Assembly: GCF_038595065.1 (NCBI RefSeq) | Contig: NZ_CP152003.1 | Span: forward strand, 2,770,001 to 2,834,000 | Direction of reading: 5' to 3' | Source of the DNA: Sutcliffiella sp. FSL R7-0096 | GTDB taxonomy: Bacteria > Bacillota > Bacilli > Bacillales > Bacillaceae_I | DNA: 64,000 nucleotides | Shown here: in pieces, positions 34,860-50,806 of the stretch | How the letters are laid out: each line of letters opens with the position of its first letter | How positions within the stretch are numbered: the stretch's first letter is position 1 | Position numbers and translations under genes: made by a program | The notes under the pieces: generated by a model | Told to the model about the DNA's origin: nothing | Seen by the model: only the letters and a program-made list of their open reading frames with translations | Database searches by the model: none

Positions 34860-35765
34860 TTAATTCATCCTTACCCGCAACCAGTCTTCCCAATCTTTCA
34901 TCGAACTTCCAATGAGGTGATCATAAAATTCCCTTTTTTTGTTTTCTGACATTTTATCGACTGCTGTACCTCCAAGTCCAATGATTAGCGACGGATATTG
35001 CTGTTTCAGCTCTGTCACCATTTCCAATGTTTTAGGCAGATTGACGGAAAGGGTACAAGACAAAAATAGAAATTTCGGATCAATCTCTTTTAGGACGATA
35101 TGGATATCATCATCTGCGATACTTGTACCAAGATAGACCGTTTCAAACCCTTTTCTTCTAACAAATAGCGTATATATAAGTAACCCGAGTTCATGCCACT
35201 CTCCTGGTCCACATACCGACACCGTTTTAGGAAGGAAGCCGTTTACCGGTAATCCGTGAAGAATCATCCCAATCCGTGAGCGCAGAAATGCAGAGGCAAA
35301 ATGTTCGTGGGCACTTGAAATTTCATCCTTCTCCCACATATCACCTATCTTAACGAGCAATGTTCCCAGAATATCAATCAGCACTTTCTCAACCGAGTAT
35401 AAACTAAAAATCTTATCCATCAATTCATGAGCTTGCCCTTCATTGAACTGCAAAAGAGCTTCCATTAATTGATTAAGTAATTCAGTGGACATATCTTCCG
35501 TATATGTATGTTCCGTTTCCAGAAAAGTTTGATTGTTCTTTTCGAACAGTGAAACGGCTTGACTGATGGTGAAGCCTTTGTTCACTTTCTGGATTAACCA
35601 TTTGAGTATCCTAATATGTTCTTCCGTGTACAAGCGATGTCCAGACTCATTTCTGACCGGAGCAATAATTTGATATCTTCTCTCCCACGCTCGTAATGTT
35701 CCTGGCTGGATACCCAGCATTTTTGAGGCTGCTTTAATATTGTACTTACCTTCATTAGTTGACAT
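34860..35765 (-). CDS. CarH-like B12-dependent MerR photoreceptor regulator
   Basis: 301 residues from ATG at 35765 (AAAGGG upstream; the open frame extends 8 codons further to a TTG). Domain 1 (9-75) is a MerR helix-turn-helix, KAASKMLGIQPGTLRAWERRY. Domain 2 is the helical cobalamin cap with W144-x9-E154-H155, the signature of CarH/LitR. Domain 3 is a B12-binding Rossmann fold with E189-x-H191-x-x-G194, where His is the expected lower axial ligand. Such proteins repress DNA as AdoCbl-bound tetramers in the dark and fall apart in light. The residue after Trp144, His in Thermus CarH, is Glu here. No carotenoid gene is in the window. Confidence 0.85.
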   Translation of the reverse strand: MSTNEGKYNIKAASKMLGIQPGTLRAWERRYQIIAPVRNESGHRLYTEEHIRILKWLIQKVNKGFTISQAVSLFEKNNQTFLETEHTYTEDMSTELLNQLMEALLQFNEGQAHELMDKIFSLYSVEKVLIDILGTLLVKIGDMWEKDEISSAHEHFASAFLRSRIGMILHGLPVNGFLPKTVSVCGPGEWHELGLLIYTLFVRRKGFETVYLGTSIADDDIHIVLKEIDPKFLFLSCTLSVNLPKTLEMVTELKQQYPSLIIGLGGTAVDKMSENKKREFYDHLIGSSMKDWEDWLRVRMN

Positions 35766-35803
35766 ACAGATCCCTTTCTCTCCTATCAAAATCCATACTT
35801 TGC

Positions 35804-41766: not shown

Positions 41767-42351
41767 CTATACGTTTTTCACTTCTAACTGACGCTCAAGC
41801 CAGACTGCCAACTTCTTATATAACAACAGGAATAAGAACGTGACAATAAGCCCTTTTATAATATTAAAAGGCAAAATACCTTTAACGATACCTTCAATCA
41901 TTTGTGCAGATGATTCAGCAGGGACATTCAAGAAATAGGTGAATGCCGGCAAGAAAATATAATAATTAAGGACGCTCATAAACATTGCCATCGATAAAGT
42001 TCCAACCACTAGACCGAGGCCCAACCCTTTCGTTGTTCGGATCTTATTGAATATGAAGTATGTCGGCAAGATAAAGAGCACTCCAGCAGTAAAATTGGCC
42101 ATCTGTCCGACAGGAACTCCGGTCATGCTGCCTTGGACGATATAATGAAGGATATTTTTGATTGCTTCAACGGTAATACCTGCAACCGGGCCAAAAATAA
42201 TCGCAGCAAGCAATGCAGGGACGTCACTGAAGTCCACAGATAAAAATGGAGGCAACAACGGGAGTGGAAAACTTAACCACATGAGCAGGTAAGAGATACC
42301 ACTTAACATACCCACTGTTACCATTTTTTTGATGCGTTTTGATTGATTCAT
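41767..42351 (-). CDS. ribU: riboflavin ECF transporter S component
   Basis: 194 residues from ATG at 42351 (AAGGAG at 9 bases); the frame is open to 42465 but reads through the riboswitch leader. Six helices; FSDVPALLAAIIFGPVAGITVEAIKN is the conserved RibU loop. Substrate-binding subunit that uses the shared EcfAA'T module. The FMN riboswitch upstream confirms the substrate. B. subtilis name ypaA/fmnP. Confidence 0.96.
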   Translation of the reverse strand: MNQSKRIKKMVTVGMLSGISYLLMWLSFPLPLLPPFLSVDFSDVPALLAAIIFGPVAGITVEAIKNILHYIVQGSMTGVPVGQMANFTAGVLFILPTYFIFNKIRTTKGLGLGLVVGTLSMAMFMSVLNYYIFLPAFTYFLNVPAESSAQMIEGIVKGILPFNIIKGLIVTFLFLLLYKKLAVWLERQLEVKNV

Positions 42352-42533
42352 TTCTTTTCTCTCCTTTTCAAATGGAGATCCACCTCGTACGAAAAGAGAG
42401 ATTTCAAAGCTTTCATTTACTTCAGGATGCCACACCACGTAAAAGAACCGCTTGTCGATTAACAAACGGGAGTGTTGAAGGCATCAGGAAATAAGCGTTG
42501 AAAAACGCTGCATTTTCAACCACTTTGAACCTC

Positions 42534-42660
42534 CATCTTCTCCCATCCAGACTATACTGTCGGCTTTGGAATCACACCAAATCCTGCCACTAAAGGCTCG
42601 CGGGCTTAGAGAGTCAACCTCATCACCGCCGATCGGGAATTTCACCCTGCCCCGAAGATA
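42534..42660 (-). promoter_or_regulatory. FMN riboswitch (RFN element)
   Basis: Minus-strand reads ATCTTCGGGGCAGGGTGAAA, ATTCCCGATCGGCGGTGAT, GCCCGCGAGCC, GGCAGGATTTGGTGTGATTC, CAAAGCCGACAGTATAGTCTGGATGGGAGAAGAT, the conserved core of the FMN aptamer. The two ATCTTC/GAAGAT ends form P1. Downstream, AGCGTT...AACGCT and an overlapping GTTGAAAA...TTTTTCAAC can form mutually exclusive hairpins (42490-42520). A -10 TATAAT-like box lies at about 42684-42690. Confidence 0.95.
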
Positions 42661-42794
42661 GATCATATTATTTAGTTACGAAGTTATTATACTCGTAAAA
42701 TAGGAAAAAGGAAAGAGAAATGAACCTTTATTCATTTTTTATGGGGATTTCGCAACAATAAGCGCTTACATAGGTTCGACCTGTCGCAAAGTTA

Positions 42795-45529: not shown

Positions 45530-46807
45530 TTACTCACTATAAGGAATTGGATTAGGTGAAAAAGGTACGCTTACCTCTTCATTGAGTGGGATAGTACCGA
45601 TTGTTCCGGTTTGGGACGATTCGAAAACCACACCCATTAATCCGAATTCTTTTGCTACCATCAGCATCGCCTCAAGCGCAAAGATGGTTTCTTCGTTATC
45701 TTCTAGCACGCTGCTATCAGCTAACTTTATGCGAGCTATCGCTCCATCATCTTTTATCGTCACCCCATCCACTTTTACCGTGTCTGGAATGGATGGTTCA
45801 AGCTTGCTATAGTCATGCTGTTCAGGGGCACTTGTCATAGCCTTAAGAGTATCTCCAATCGTTTTAAATCGCTCATGGCCGGCAACTAAAAGTAGAATGG
45901 AGCCTGTATAGTATTTATAATAGGCACGTTTTTGATTTTGTTCAAAAACAATTGGGCCCTCGTATACTGTATTACCTATTTCAACATTCACTTTATTGCC
46001 ATTATCACTCAACTGAACTTGAGAGTAATGAAGACTGAATGTATCTATTAGTTCTTTTTGGAATAATGGGTCTTGGAAAGAAGAAAGCCCTTTATCCATC
46101 TTTGTAATGTCTACTACAGGAACTCGATTTCCCGAAGCATCAATTTCTTCTGTAACAACTCCAAAATCATTGATGAATGGCTTTTCTAATCCATAATTTT
46201 CAAATGCTAGGTTGCCACGGACTTTGTTTAACGCATCTACATACGTTTGGCCTTCCTCCTTCGATACAATCACTGTCAATGGAGTAGTTGACCCTCCAAA
46301 AGGAATAGTATCCGCATGAGACAAGGTAGCGCCTATCGTCACAGCATATTCATCAGCCTCATTATAAGCTGACACAACAAAGCTTCTTCCATCTGCAGTC
46401 ATCATTTCAACTGCAGCAAAATCACTAGCTTCCGATTCATCCTTTGATAAAGCCTCTTCTTCCTCGCTTATATGTTTGCGGCTAGATTCCATCTCGACTT
46501 CAGAGTCATCGGAGGCTTCATGCGCATCCATCGTAGCCATATCCATGTTTTCTTCTGATCCGCTATTTGCATCAGAGCCGCTCAAACTCATATCAAAGTT
46601 CATGTTATTGACAAACATTGGTCCGATAATTGCTACAATGAATAAGGCTGCCACCAAAGCGACCGCAGGCATTAGTTTCGTTCGGCGAGGTGTACTTGCT
46701 AACTTTGGTTGAATTTCTTTATATATTTGATTCGGGTCCCGATCATCTTTAATTTTAGGCATTTGCCTCAAAAGCTTTTCCAGTTGGTCTTGCTCGTCAT
46801 GACGCAT
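45530..46807 (-). CDS. rsiX: anti-sigma-X factor RsiX
   Basis: 425 residues. Cytoplasmic N-terminus of about 43, one membrane helix (about 44-66), an acidic Asp/Glu/Ser-rich stretch (75-130) and a large extracytoplasmic domain. It follows sigX with an 11-base overlap (AAAGGAGG inside sigX), and the sigX-rsiX pair beside resE is conserved. Longer than B. subtilis RsiX (about 370) because of the acidic insert. Assignment rests on topology and context. Confidence 0.88.
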   Translation of the reverse strand: MRHDEQDQLEKLLRQMPKIKDDRDPNQIYKEIQPKLASTPRRTKLMPAVALVAALFIVAIIGPMFVNNMNFDMSLSGSDANSGSEENMDMATMDAHEASDDSEVEMESSRKHISEEEEALSKDESEASDFAAVEMMTADGRSFVVSAYNEADEYAVTIGATLSHADTIPFGGSTTPLTVIVSKEEGQTYVDALNKVRGNLAFENYGLEKPFINDFGVVTEEIDASGNRVPVVDITKMDKGLSSFQDPLFQKELIDTFSLHYSQVQLSDNGNKVNVEIGNTVYEGPIVFEQNQKRAYYKYYTGSILLLVAGHERFKTIGDTLKAMTSAPEQHDYSKLEPSIPDTVKVDGVTIKDDGAIARIKLADSSVLEDNEETIFALEAMLMVAKEFGLMGVVFESSQTGTIGTIPLNEEVSVPFSPNPIPYSE

Positions 46808-47333
46808 TGCTGTTTCCTCCTTTCTCTTGAAGTTCTTCCATATAAGTCTTTAAGACCTTTAAGGCTCTATGCTGAGTTGTTTTCACCTTACTTTCCGTCC
46901 ATCCCAGTATCTGGGCAGTTTCTTGAATGGATAAGGCTTGTATGTACCGCAGGACAAGGACCAGCCGATGATCGACTTTACATTTATCCAAGCACCGGTA
47001 CATTTGTTGGACTTGTTCATTTTGAAGAGCTATCTCTTCTGGTAGGGGAGCGTGATCTCTGACTTGCTGTTTATTCCAGTCAAATGTTTCAAGTAGTTTG
47101 TTTTTCCATCCTTTATGTTTACGGAAGGAATCGATGGCGACATGTTTAGCTATGGAAAAGAGCCATGTCTTTTCGCTGCTTTTTCCTTCGAAACGGTCAT
47201 AGGAACGCAAAACTTTTATATAAACTTCTTGAACGAGGTCTTCCGCTTGCTCCTTATTGTTCACCATATAATATAGGAATTGATAAACATCCTGGTGATA
47301 TTTTTCATAGAGCTCTTGAAAAACGGTATTCAT
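46797..47333 (-). CDS. sigX: ECF sigma factor SigX
   Basis: 178 residues. Region 2: QAEDLVQEVYIKVLRSYDRFEGKSSEKTWLFSIAKHVAIDSFR; region 4: LVLVLRYIQALSIQETAQILGWTESKVKTTQHRALKVL. Closely follows B. subtilis SigX, which controls D-alanylation and phosphatidylethanolamine genes and so envelope charge. A sigma-X promoter is directly upstream. Confidence 0.95.
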   Translation of the reverse strand: MNTVFQELYEKYHQDVYQFLYYMVNNKEQAEDLVQEVYIKVLRSYDRFEGKSSEKTWLFSIAKHVAIDSFRKHKGWKNKLLETFDWNKQQVRDHAPLPEEIALQNEQVQQMYRCLDKCKVDHRLVLVLRYIQALSIQETAQILGWTESKVKTTQHRALKVLKTYMEELQEKGGNSNAS

Positions 47334-47555: not shown

Positions 47556-47590
47556 AGTAAAAGCGTCAACACCCGATGGGTACTGACGCT
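47556..47590 (-). terminator. terminator after the ECF S-component gene
   Basis: AGCGTCA-GT-ACCC / GGGT-GT-TGACGCT with a 3-base loop, then TTTACT; 8 bp beyond the stop. Confidence 0.8.
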
Positions 47591-47598
47591 CCTCGACT

Positions 47599-48150
47599 TC
47601 ATTTCTTATTCGTACTGCTCATCATGTATTCAGGTAAGGTACCTTTTCTTCTCACAATAAATGGCGCTTTTTCGTTAAGCAATCTGGAAAGAATCGGGTA
47701 TAACACGATAAAGAAGACGACATTTCCTATGGCATGATTGATATCGAACGGCAAGCCGGCCAAGTAATAAGGTAAAAAGGGAAAGCCCCCTACGACCATG
47801 TTTTGGATGGAAAATACAAGACCGAAAAATAATCCGCAGAGGCCGGCATATAGAGAAAGTATAAAAACCGGTACCTTTTTAAACCAGATTCCCAATGCTC
47901 CACTTACTAGTCCTATGACCGACCATGCAAAAATCTGTGTAAATGTCCACAACCCCGTACCAAGGACGAGATTTGTGGCAAATGTGGTCCCTACTGCTAG
48001 AATGACTCCTGAGAGGGGGCCCATCCAAAACGCACAGATAATGATGATTGCCGTTACTGGTTGCACATTTGGAACGGAAGCAAACGCAATTCTTCCTACA
48101 ACACAAAGAGCAATCAGCATTCCCAATAATGCTATCTTCTTGGTAGTCAT
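47599..48150 (-). CDS. ECF transporter S component, probable cobalamin uptake
   Basis: 183 residues, about six helices. MTTKKIALLGMLIALCVVGRIAFASVPNVQPVTAIIIICAFWMGPLSGVILAVGTT is the N-terminal S-component pattern that binds the T protein. It lies 2 bases after a transcobalamin-like lipoprotein, and the pair is behind a cobalamin riboswitch, so B12 or a precursor is the likely substrate (families called CblT/CbrT). No own ATPase; it would use the common EcfAA'T. Substrate is inferred. Confidence 0.85.
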   Translation of the reverse strand: MTTKKIALLGMLIALCVVGRIAFASVPNVQPVTAIIIICAFWMGPLSGVILAVGTTFATNLVLGTGLWTFTQIFAWSVIGLVSGALGIWFKKVPVFILSLYAGLCGLFFGLVFSIQNMVVGGFPFLPYYLAGLPFDINHAIGNVVFFIVLYPILSRLLNEKAPFIVRRKGTLPEYMMSSTNKK

Positions 48151-48152
48151 AC

Positions 48153-48569
48153 TTATTCCACCTTTTGATAATCAAAATGTACTTCGTCGTTCTCCTCTAA
48201 AGTATAATCACTTGCACCTACCATTAAGCTTTCCCCATTAACTGATATGTTCCAATAATAATCTGCTTCATCTTCAGAGCCAAGCCCGTCAATCCCAACA
48301 ATAAAATCTCCACCAAAACCTGTGGTAAGGTCAAAGTTGCGATCCATCACGTCCATAAGGGATTCTCCTTCTTCAAATTCAAACGTGTCCTCGCTGATGA
48401 CTTCTTCGCCTTCTTTAGTCAGCTTGATGGAAGTAGATAAGTTATTTTCTTGTTGTTCCTGTGCAGGAGCCGAGTTGTTGGTGTTTTGGTTTGCTTCGTT
48501 TGTCGCATCTGCACATCCTGCTAAAACCAGAGTAAGTGCTGCAACTAGTGTTAACAAATAATTCTTCAT
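48153..48569 (-). CDS. lipoprotein with DUF4430 / transcobalamin-like domain
   Basis: 138 residues from ATG at 48569 (AAGGGG at 10 bases; an ATG three codons earlier is too close to that site). Signal peptide with lipobox LAGC (Cys19), an Asn/Gln/Glu linker to about 43, then a domain with ESLMDVMD, DYYWNISVNGESLMVG and SDYTLEENDEVHFDY, which matches the C-terminal domain of animal transcobalamin and intrinsic factor. Probably captures cobalamin outside the membrane and hands it to the S component encoded next. Confidence 0.85.
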   Translation of the reverse strand: MKNYLLTLVAALTLVLAGCADATNEANQNTNNSAPAQEQQENNLSTSIKLTKEGEEVISEDTFEFEEGESLMDVMDRNFDLTTGFGGDFIVGIDGLGSEDEADYYWNISVNGESLMVGASDYTLEENDEVHFDYQKVE

Positions 48570-48640
48570 TTTTCTCATTTCCCCTTATGTAAGTTTATTG
48601 GTAGATTTGTAAAACGTGTGTCCCCGGGTTATGAGCAAAC

Positions 48641-48672
48641 AAAAAACCCCATCCGATTTTCAGGATGAGGTG
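48641..48672 (-). terminator. riboswitch-controlled terminator
   Basis: Minus-strand CCTCATCC / GGATGGGG (48670-48663 / 48654-48647, one G-U pair) with TTTTTTG, between the cobalamin aptamer and the lipoprotein gene. It is the likely off-switch. Confidence 0.85.
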
Positions 48673-48754
48673 ATAACGGCATATTAATTCAATAAGAAAA
48701 CATAGTTGTGCCGTCTCTCCTACTCAACCCCCGAAGTATTGAAACTGGTATAAA

Positions 48755-48940
48755 TAATTGGCAGGTCTACTGACTTATGCTTCCTCCTACTATGAGCCTT
48801 CCCATATGGTGACCTAATTCCTTAAGCCTATTCATACAGTGGTAATCTCATTTCGTCCACATTTACAGTTGCGGGGACAGTCTTGGCATTGCACCAAATT
48901 CCCTATTAAGTCACCATCGTGACACCAATTATATGTTAAC
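48755..48940 (-). promoter_or_regulatory. cobalamin riboswitch
   Basis: Minus-strand conserved pieces in order: GGTGCAATGCCAAGACTGTCC, CCGCAACTGT, GCTTAAGGAATTAGGTCACC, ATGGGAAGGC, GTAGGAGGAAGCATAAGTCAG and AGACCTGCC. These are the B12-box and core of the AdoCbl riboswitch. A terminator follows, so high cobalamin should shut the uptake genes. Confidence 0.93.
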
Positions 48941-49021
48941 TATTCAGTTTTACTAAGTTTCATATTACAAGATATGTCTATGGATGACAAGAAAATGTTT
49001 CATACAAAACAAGATTTTTCG

Positions 49022-50806
49022 CTATTGCTCATCATATAAATTCAACTTTTGCGGAATAAACATGGAAAATGTCGTGCCTTCGTTTTCTTTGGAGTGAACC
49101 GATATGGTTCCTTGATGCGCATCCACTATATTTTTCACGATTGCCAACCCAAGACCGGTACCTGCGCGCCCTCTAGTTCTCGCCTTATCGGCTTTGTAAA
49201 ACCGTTCAAATACAAATGGAAGATCCTCTTCGGGAATCCCGTGTCCGGAGTCTTTCACATCGATTTTAACCCCATTGTCCATCATTTTAACATGGATGGA
49301 GATTATCCCTTCGTCAGCCGTATGACGAATTGCGTTATCAACAAGGTTTGTCATCACTTGTTCCATCCGATCGACATCCATTTGGATAGAGCCCTTTCCG
49401 TCTACAAGAGAATGCAGGGCAATCGCCTTTTCTTTTGCCAACCCCTGAAATTTACGAGTGATTTTCTCTACAAAAATTGCGACATCAGTCTGTTCATAGT
49501 TCAAGGAAATATGACCTGCTTCCATTCTTGCCAAATCGAGAAGATCATTGACCAGTCTTCCCATCCTTAAGGATTCATCATAAATCACGGAAGCCAGTTC
49601 TTTTTTCTCTTCTTCCGTTCCTGCTATATCATCCACAATTGCCTCGCTGTAACCCTGAAGCATGGAGATAGGTGTACGTAGCTCATGGGAGACATTGGCA
49701 ATAAAGTCTTTCCTAAGCTTATCAAGCCTTCTCTCTTCCGTCATGTCACGGATAACGGCAACTGCTCCACGAATATTTGTTTGCGTGTACAGAGGGCTCA
49801 TTACAATTACCCATGTGCGCCCCTGATAGATCAACTCAATACTTTGCTCCTTTTCTACCGATATGGCCCGCTGGAACATTTCTTTCACCTCACCAGGAAG
49901 GTCTTCTCCACTGGCGTTCCCCTCTTGATAGAACCATGCCTGCAAAAACTTTTCAGCAGGTGGGTTCGTAACAAGGATGGTCCCATCGCGATTCAGGGTA
50001 ATTACCCCATCCGCCATACTACTGAGTATGTTTGCAAGATGTTCCTTTTCCTGATTCAGGGCATTGATATTAAATTTGAGCTGCCTTCCCATTTGGTTGA
50101 AAGCCATTCCCAATTCACCTATTTCATCCGAGGTTAGGATTGGGACCTTCGTGTCAAATTTCCCACGTGCAACTTCAAAGGCAGCTTCTCTCATATTTCT
50201 GAGTGGAGCTGTGATTCTAGTTGAAAGAAAGAAAGCAAAAATGGTCGTCAGAAAGATGGCAAATCCAGCTGCAAGCAAAATCAGCTTCGTCGTTTGTTTT
50301 GTCGTTTCTTTTATAGCAAGAAGGGACTGATAAACAAAAACAGCTCCATCTTTATTTCCGTCAATATGCAAAGGGATACCGACAATCATCACTTCCCCAT
50401 GCATTTCATCGGTGATATTCAGATCTGGGAGGTACGTTTTCTTTGTTACAATCGGCTGATCTTCAAATACAAGGGAAAGCTCTGGATCATTCAGGAAAAA
50501 TTCTGCAGGAAGATGATCGATTTCCGGATTCGGCGAATGAGAAAACTCCCCTTTATCAGTGAAAATCACCACTCGAGATACTTCATCCACAAGCTCCCAT
50601 GCAATGGATTTAGATTGTTCCATATTTTCATGCTGCTCCAGTATCAACGAAATCTTACTTGCAGCCTGTGTCAGGTCTTTCTCCGCTTCCTGTACATGGT
50701 AATTATCAAAGAATTCAAGTAACAAGATCGTCAATACAAATAATACAAAGGAAACCAAAAGTAAAATGGTAAGCCAGAGCTTACCAACGACACTTCTCCA
50801 AATCAT
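49022..50806 (-). CDS. resE: sensor histidine kinase ResE
   Basis: 594 residues. Two membrane helices (9-31 and about 167-189) around an extracytoplasmic sensor domain, HAMP ([21 protein letters not shown]), PAS ([15 protein letters not shown]), HisKA with phospho-acceptor in [13 protein letters not shown], and HATPase with N box [21 protein letters not shown] and [13 protein letters not shown]. Senses respiratory or redox conditions and phosphorylates ResD; the start overlaps resD by 4 bases (ATGA). Confidence 0.95.

Follow-up and report, generated by a model that had tools for sequence, protein, structure and literature searches.

The minus strand of the window (the whole stretch of 64,000 nucleotides that was analysed) carries a real and conserved B12 uptake cassette of an already known pairing, in which a cobalamin riboswitch precedes the genes of a DUF4430 lipoprotein and of an ECF transporter S component. 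We assign a probability of roughly 0.72 to the reading that this cassette serves B12-repressed cobamide uptake, with the lipoprotein capturing the corrinoid and the CbrT-like S component importing it. By analogy to animal B12 carriers, the lipoprotein is best read as a capture module of the transcobalamin beta type. In the usual account of ECF transporters, the S component alone captures the substrate, and a widespread, B12-regulated partner lipoprotein with a transcobalamin beta fold would be a concrete case of an added capture step. It would also provide bacterial DUF4430 proteins with a likely function and suggest that the animal two-domain B12 carriers may have relatives among bacterial surface proteins.

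Along the minus strand, the cassette consists of a promoter-like site, the cobalamin riboswitch, a terminator, the DUF4430 lipoprotein gene, the S component gene and a hairpin. These features and their flanks are located as follows:

49022..50806, minus strand: upstream flank, sensor histidine kinase (family matches; ResE by position)
48962..48990, minus strand: promoter-like site TTGTCA-17-TAATAT, a consensus match upstream of the riboswitch
48743..48944, minus strand: cobalamin riboswitch aptamer RF00174 (covariance model, 107.3 bits, E 6.9e-26)
48646..48671, minus strand: intrinsic terminator, 9-bp stem followed by T's, probable expression platform of the riboswitch
48153..48578, minus strand: DUF4430 lipoprotein (CbrS-like), ORF of 141 aa, probable true start at 48569
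48513..48515, minus strand: codon of the lipobox cysteine (sequence LAGC), Cys22 of the longest ORF
48162..48368, minus strand: DUF4430 domain with the transcobalamin beta-domain fold (PF14478, residues 71-139)
47599..48150, minus strand: ECF transporter S component, CbrT-like, 183 aa (PF12822), 2-base gap after the lipoprotein
47556..47598, minus strand: hairpin of 19 pairs with T's behind, -21.7 kcal/mol, probable cassette-end terminator
46797..47333, minus strand: downstream flank, sigX (NF007220, 286.2 bits against 260)

The initial annotation had placed a cobalamin riboswitch with its own terminator at the head of the cassette, and both elements were recovered. The aptamer matches the complete RF00174 model (positions 1-189) and, at 107.3 bits, lies far above the gathering threshold of 31.5. 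As this match runs to 48944, the cassette limit originally set at 48940 had to be corrected. The terminator at 48671-48646, a 9-bp stem with a T tail, sits ahead of both genes, the lipoprotein first and then the S component, and its hairpin was also recovered behind the aptamer in the predicted fold of the leader, at a z-score of only -1.76. Sites of the TTGTCA-17-TAATAT type are no commoner in the region than expected by chance (6 against 5.4 expected), and a pattern scan for terminators did not list the hairpin at 47556..47598.

Within the lipoprotein gene, the second ATG at 48569 is the probable true start, as it shows the better spacing to an AAGGGG motif and as relatives of the same genus begin at the corresponding MKK (MKKLL). 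Comparisons relied on hand-chosen sets, namely A1 (n = 27) and A2 (n = 28), drawn mostly from compact loci, and A3 (n = 15), consisting of surface and toroid proteins. The lipobox cysteine was found to be nearly invariant (at least 90%) across the 27 aligned lipoproteins of set A1, as are several residues of the domain: F92, I93 and A122 are each conserved in 25 rows, W109, N114 and D131 in 26, and G121 in all 27. The family assignment proposed at the outset is supported by a PF14478 match of 67 bits against a cut-off of 23.8 at residues 71-139, the sole match to this family in the whole genome. A search of the PDB with the single sequence listed mostly antibody light chains (best E 0.0028, with 3u7z at 0.37), a chance likeness that was rejected as kinship, and it was therefore replaced by profile and fold searches. 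With a profile of the 27 relatives, the best match was 3u7z (E 1.1e-6), followed by haptocorrin 4kki, listed in the PDB as transcobalamin-1 (7e-5), and intrinsic factor (0.009), while three unrelated proteins (E 0.013-0.047) match the lipoprotein leader only.

An AlphaFold2 model of the lipoprotein places 77 of 141 residues at a pLDDT of at least 90, and ten-residue blocks from residue 51 onward reach 90-97, except for a single block at 79 and the C-terminal one at 78. Compared with the PDB by Foldseek, this model yielded 19 matches at E <= 0.001, comprising two chains of 3u7z and 17 of transcobalamin, haptocorrin or intrinsic factor; the next match was a SUMO-like fold at E 0.026. The likeness to the C-terminal domain of transcobalamin and intrinsic factor, first noticed in the sequence alone, thus holds for both the profile and the fold. 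In the profile alignment, counted by eye, Val352, Phe370 and Leu377, which we take to be ligand contacts of intrinsic factor, stand opposite Ile93, Ile111 and Leu118 of the lipoprotein, which are hydrophobic too; no weight is given to this correspondence. A Pfam scan of the 141 aa of the window lipoprotein identified DUF4430 alone and no alpha/alpha toroid. The genome's one PF13243 match lies elsewhere, in an open frame of 658 aa that by its size is of the squalene-hopene cyclase type.

According to a study on human transcobalamin (PMC5599065), crystals of the isolated beta domain contain bound cyanocobalamin and cobinamide, the alpha and beta domains assemble only with cobalamin, and splitting of the domains lowers the affinity. 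Since the human beta domain binds alone and splitting reduces affinity, a beta-only lipoprotein could by analogy act as a cobamide binder, although its affinity would probably be below that of complete transcobalamin.

The S component gene (ORF 47599-48150) begins 2 bases after the lipoprotein gene, as described initially, and its product matches PF12822 at 35.6 bits (cut-off 30.7). A phmmer search of the PDB returned one sequence at E <= 1, namely 6fnp_A (E 5.2e-22), which is titled "Membrane protein" and which we take to be CbrT of Lactobacillus delbrueckii. The record of L. delbrueckii DSM 20074 (L106) carries the 6fnp sequence at 98% identity. This sole match agrees with the earlier proposal of an ECF S component in a B12 uptake cassette and makes it one of the CbrT type, a name that reportedly goes back to a comparative study of 2009. 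The window protein shares 35% identity over 145 columns with the cbrT copy of locus L105, which falls inside the range of 25-60% given for CbrT homologues in Lactobacillales in the eLife 2018 paper (PMC5997447). The same paper describes binding and transport of cobalamin and cobinamide by L. delbrueckii ECF-CbrT (PMC5997447). From this published work on a homologue, we infer that the S component of the window transports cobalamin. The lipoprotein would, as a further inference of our own, bind cobamides and act together with it. Of a CbrT-type S component, about six membrane helices would be expected; a hydropathy scan gave overlapping hydrophobic segments only. The cassette itself contains no EcfT or EcfA genes and two EcfT-family (PF02361) genes exist elsewhere in the genome; the ECF module is therefore likely encoded outside the cassette.

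Other substrates were considered for the S component. A folate S component was rejected at 12.6 bits against a folate model cut-off of 60. At 41767-42663 (minus strand), the window harbors an FMN riboswitch (121.9 bits) followed by a second ECF S component, which is RibU-like by this riboswitch, so that two riboswitch-controlled S components occur within one window. This second S component shows no detectable similarity to the cassette S component, and a riboflavin S component was rejected on this basis.

The pairing under B12 riboswitches that the initial annotation expected in other genomes was examined in an order-level sample of 150 genomes and a phylum-level sample of 299. In the order sample, DUF4430 and the S component each occur in 54 of 150 genomes and together in 53, leaving one genome with DUF4430 alone (G053) and one with a weak S match alone (G024, 7.2e-5); in one genome with both (G035), the two genes lie on different contigs. 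A cobalamin-class riboswitch (RF00174 or RF01482) was found upstream on the same strand in 48 of the 53 genomes with the pair, that is, in 47 with fetched loci and in the window, including a partial match of 38.6 bits in L089. For the remaining five (G014, G035, G059, G077, G122), a strict-filter search identified no RF00174 genome-wide. As the same search detected RF00174 somewhere in 142 of 150 genomes, it is the place of the riboswitch and not its presence that counts as evidence. Two of the three refuting conditions named in the initial annotation, a missing riboswitch match and a lack of co-occurrence in other genomes, were checked, and neither applies.

A similar picture emerged from the phylum sample, in which DUF4430 is present in 95 of 299 genomes and the CbrT profile matches 113 at E <= 0.001. 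At E <= 1e-10, 90 genomes have both, five DUF4430 only (G271, G320, G325, G343, G414), three the S component only and 201 neither; a strong CbrT match thus accompanies DUF4430 in 90 of 95 genomes versus 3 of 204 without DUF4430, and only 3 of 93 strong matches (G228, G304, G396) lack it. At E <= 0.001, the respective numbers are 91, 4, 22 and 182. Tests of this co-occurrence are inflated by the relatedness of the sampled genomes and are not to be taken literally. Among 20 phylum loci, chosen by hand and mostly the best-scoring from the 95 DUF4430 genomes, 13 exhibit a cobalamin riboswitch; of the seven that do not, two (L147, L158) are truncated at the end of a contig.

Three locus layouts were distinguished in a survey that used one DUF4430 match per locus (in expanded loci that in the shorter protein) and, for L049, one of three riboswitches. 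Starts and strands were read by hand where automatic picks failed (such as L061, L062, L071 and L074, the last of which is compact). The compact layout, to which the window cassette belongs, consists of riboswitch, lipoprotein and S component. In the intermediate layout (L057, L058, L082), an AdoCbl-type riboswitch is followed by a protein of 448-462 aa, a DUF4430 protein and the S component. The first protein shows weak toroid matches (PF13243, E 4e-5 to 3e-4) under the Pfam cut-off, and the DUF4430 proteins (236-240 aa) show no lipobox by pattern. The expanded layout was identified for 20 loci in 19 genomes, with a riboswitch found in 19 of the 20. It combines a large surface protein with a DUF4430 protein, in which the pattern mostly detects a lipobox; some loci add a sortase, and the S component lies about 2.4-2.6 kb further on. 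In L044, the intervening genes are one that by eye resembles EcfT and one for a double ABC ATPase. Sortase genes (PF04203) were detected inside the B12 operons of the two loci tested (L090:3732-4331 and L098:5898-6482), where they adjoin surface proteins with LPXTG-like ends, and L047 and L086 contain a sortase-like gene by eye.

The surface proteins of expanded operons vary in architecture. In L044 (9112-14217, minus strand), a cobalamin-riboswitch operon encodes an S-layer-type protein of 1701 aa with six DUF4430 stretches, SLH domains and toroid matches above cut-off. The L046 protein combines DUF4430 with a toroid (PF13243 above cut-off), its LPXTG match being below cut-off. The L049 DUF4430 protein has toroid and dockerin matches, both below their cut-offs, and is preceded by three tandem cobalamin riboswitches (L049:3108-4140). 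The next gene there carries a cohesin domain above cut-off, and attachment of this B12 protein to the surface by a cohesin-dockerin pair is a possible arrangement. Six more surface proteins were scanned, of which five exhibited DUF4430 above cut-off, with toroid matches of varying strength (above at least one cut-off in L098 and L096, below in L086, L092 and L047); the L089 protein showed SLH domains only.

A model of the L046 protein (mean pLDDT 78) was compared with known folds by Foldseek. Its toroid resembles alpha/alpha toroids as a class: terpene cyclases rank ahead of transcobalamin, which stands at ranks 10 and 11. For the beta part, the matches are 3u7z and the beta domain of transcobalamin; the domain order is reversed relative to transcobalamin. 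Both transcobalamin fold classes thus co-occur in B12-regulated bacterial operons, whereas common descent of the whole two-domain protein would go beyond these matches. A specifically transcobalamin-like toroid is not supported, as terpene cyclases, farnesyltransferase and transcobalamin rank about equal in the fold search, and it is also disfavored by sequence, where squalene-hopene cyclase is nearest.

The window cassette is flanked by sigX (NF007220) and a histidine kinase which, from its position and synteny, is presumably ResE. The initial annotation had described it as inserted between sigX and the resDE genes. The location stands as far as sigX and the histidine kinase in the resE position are concerned, and the notion of an insertion in this genome does not, since relatives belonging to six families show a cassette between resE and sigX matches as well, in at least 14 of the 55 loci fetched, which argues against a recent event. 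These loci comprise 11 compact (L051, L052, L056, L059, L064, L065, L067, L068, L070, L078, L080) and three expanded ones (L086, L092, L096). A resE or resD match of more than 100 bits occurs in at least 28 of 55; both flank counts are lower bounds because the fetched windows differ in size.

In a tree of S components, whose rows were trimmed at the N-terminus and which contains no S row for L054, L055 and L073, 33 compact and 20 expanded rows lie on two sides of one well-supported branch. As both layouts occur at resE-sigX, the sequences indicate that this slot has held two lineages. An origin of the compact cassette from an expanded operon by in-place loss is not supported by this separation in the tree, which is rooted at its midpoint only. 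At one locus, L073 (G059), which lies beside resD and sigX matches, three stop codons interrupt the S component match, and no riboswitch was detected there. By its sequence, this is a decaying cassette.

The riboswitch, the gene pair, its family and fold membership and its co-occurrence are observations, onto which the following mechanism can be built. At low intracellular cobalamin, the riboswitch would let transcription pass the terminator, so that both genes would be expressed together. The lipoprotein would be tethered to the outer side of the membrane, where its transcobalamin-beta-type domain would most likely bind corrinoid loosely and raise the local concentration. The CbrT-like S component would then bind the ligand with high affinity and import it via the ECF module encoded elsewhere.

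It was considered whether the S component might import B12 with the lipoprotein as an accessory that does not bind cobamides, for example one that stabilizes the S component, holds it in position or docks to part of the wall. In the eLife paper, ECF-CbrT is active in uptake as a purified complex (PMC5997447), which means that transport itself does not depend on the lipoprotein. In line with an accessory role, rare genomes carry CbrT without DUF4430, and the sole bacterial DUF4430 match in the PDB, 3u7z, is titled "putative metal binding protein". Further points against the preferred reading are that L. delbrueckii DSM 20074 keeps cbrT with only nrdJ and cbrS pieces upstream (L106:5576-5969), that five phylum genomes have DUF4430 but no strong CbrT match, that the two genes of G035 are on different contigs, that weaker binding is expected of a lone beta domain, and that the genome has another probable B12 importer. 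However, apart from 3u7z, every fold match at E <= 0.001 is a B12 carrier, the CbrT profile is present in 90 of the 95 DUF4430 genomes, and the L044 surface protein, which repeats DUF4430 six times alongside a toroid, looks like ligand capture. An accessory role is hence considered unlikely, if worth keeping in mind.

The host genome contains four RF00174 riboswitches including that of the cassette. The second precedes a run of cobO-, cobB-, cobQ- and cobT-like genes (by eye) followed by a binding protein (PF01497) and a permease (PF01032), the third two ribonucleotide reductase subunit-like genes and the fourth a metE-like gene (both by eye). Six B12-binding-domain matches above cut-off were counted in the genome. 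In the window, a MerR-type regulator at 34860-35789 (minus strand) combines B12-binding and B12-binding_2 domains (PF13411, PF02310, PF02607), in the manner of the B12-based light-sensing repressors CarH/LitR. By their families, the PF01497 and PF01032 genes are a probable second B12 importer of the BtuFCD type. The cassette is thus probably a second uptake route of the host.

This second importer raises the alternative that the cassette serves other corrinoids, for instance cobinamide or cobamides carrying a different lower ligand, in salvage beside the BtuFCD-type B12 importer. With the cobO/cobB/cobQ/cobT-like run and the BtuFCD-type genes, the host could remodel corrinoids. L. delbrueckii CbrT takes cobinamide as well, but with a 4-fold lower affinity (PMC5997447), and a dedicated salvage function appears improbable. 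That the riboswitch, the lipoprotein and the S component are accidental neighbors that do not work together is scarcely credible given their co-occurrence and shared riboswitch in tens of genomes, even if the G035 genes lie on different contigs with no riboswitch match.

Capture by the lipoprotein followed by CbrT-type import, the preferred reading, can tentatively be extended to a Gram-positive, transcobalamin-like relay, to which we give slightly less than even odds. Surface proteins with toroid and beta domains would pass the ligand to a beta lipoprotein and from there to a CbrT-type importer. The catchers would be either proteins anchored in the wall or S-layer that combine a toroid with one to six beta domains, or a toroid protein and a beta protein made separately, and the window cassette would represent the minimal, beta-only form. 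Animal carriers would share the ancestry of the beta domain, perhaps that of the whole two-domain arrangement.

The pair is neither new nor particular to this genome. Apart from its wide distribution, the L. delbrueckii gene order nrdJ-cbrS-cbrT-pduO is in print, and that paper mentions cbrS once, in this gene order (PMC5997447). The gene in the cbrS place encodes DUF4430 in L105, L107 and L109, and DUF4430 lies directly before the S component in L110. A 2023 proteomics paper uses the annotation "additional lipoprotein component of putative cobalamin ECF transporter"; it also lists, close to an rtpR gene, a DUF4430 protein of L. rhamnosus (PMC9963975). Together, the published order with DUF4430 in the cbrS place and the annotation name make the DUF4430-CbrT pairing known as annotation. 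A literature search, with subscription journals mostly outside its scope, brought up among the papers listed no recognisable study of what bacterial DUF4430 proteins do.

The window cassette shares with the L. delbrueckii CbrT cluster a homologous S component, which in both is immediately preceded by a DUF4430 gene (seen before cbrT in L105, L107 and L110). It differs in its cobalamin riboswitch and in its neighbors, which are sigX and the histidine kinase and not nrdJ or pduO. The window protein carries a lipobox, whereas the L105 protein, 27% identical to it over 78 columns, has no cysteine in its leader. L105 itself is an L. delbrueckii-like nrdJ-DUF4430-cbrT-pduO cluster with a cbrT of 98% identity on a contig labelled Faecalicatena absiana, for which contamination, mislabelling or recent transfer are possible explanations. 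A B12-dependent ribonucleotide reductase and a cobalamin adenosyltransferase adjoin the pair in L050 and L105, L050 being the case seen among the order loci, and this neighborhood is not counted as defining for membership in the CbrS type.

Surface binding of B12 before membrane transport is the same kind of task as that of the Bacteroides proteins BtuG, BtuH and DUF4465, among which BtuG, a lipoprotein, cooperates with a TonB-dependent transporter of the outer membrane. The terms transcobalamin, intrinsic factor and DUF gave no match in the text of the BtuH paper (PMC8941943). BtuFCD likewise employs an extracytoplasmic binding protein serving a membrane B12 importer; its proteins belong to other families than those of the cassette, and this genome has a BtuFCD-like set of its own elsewhere. 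In both the profile and the fold search, the best match of the window lipoprotein is the DUF4430 protein RUMGNA_00854 (3u7z). With the beta domains of transcobalamin, intrinsic factor and haptocorrin, the lipoprotein shares the fold and sequence-profile similarity, and it differs from these carriers in having no alpha/alpha toroid and in being a predicted membrane-anchored lipoprotein of a bacterium.
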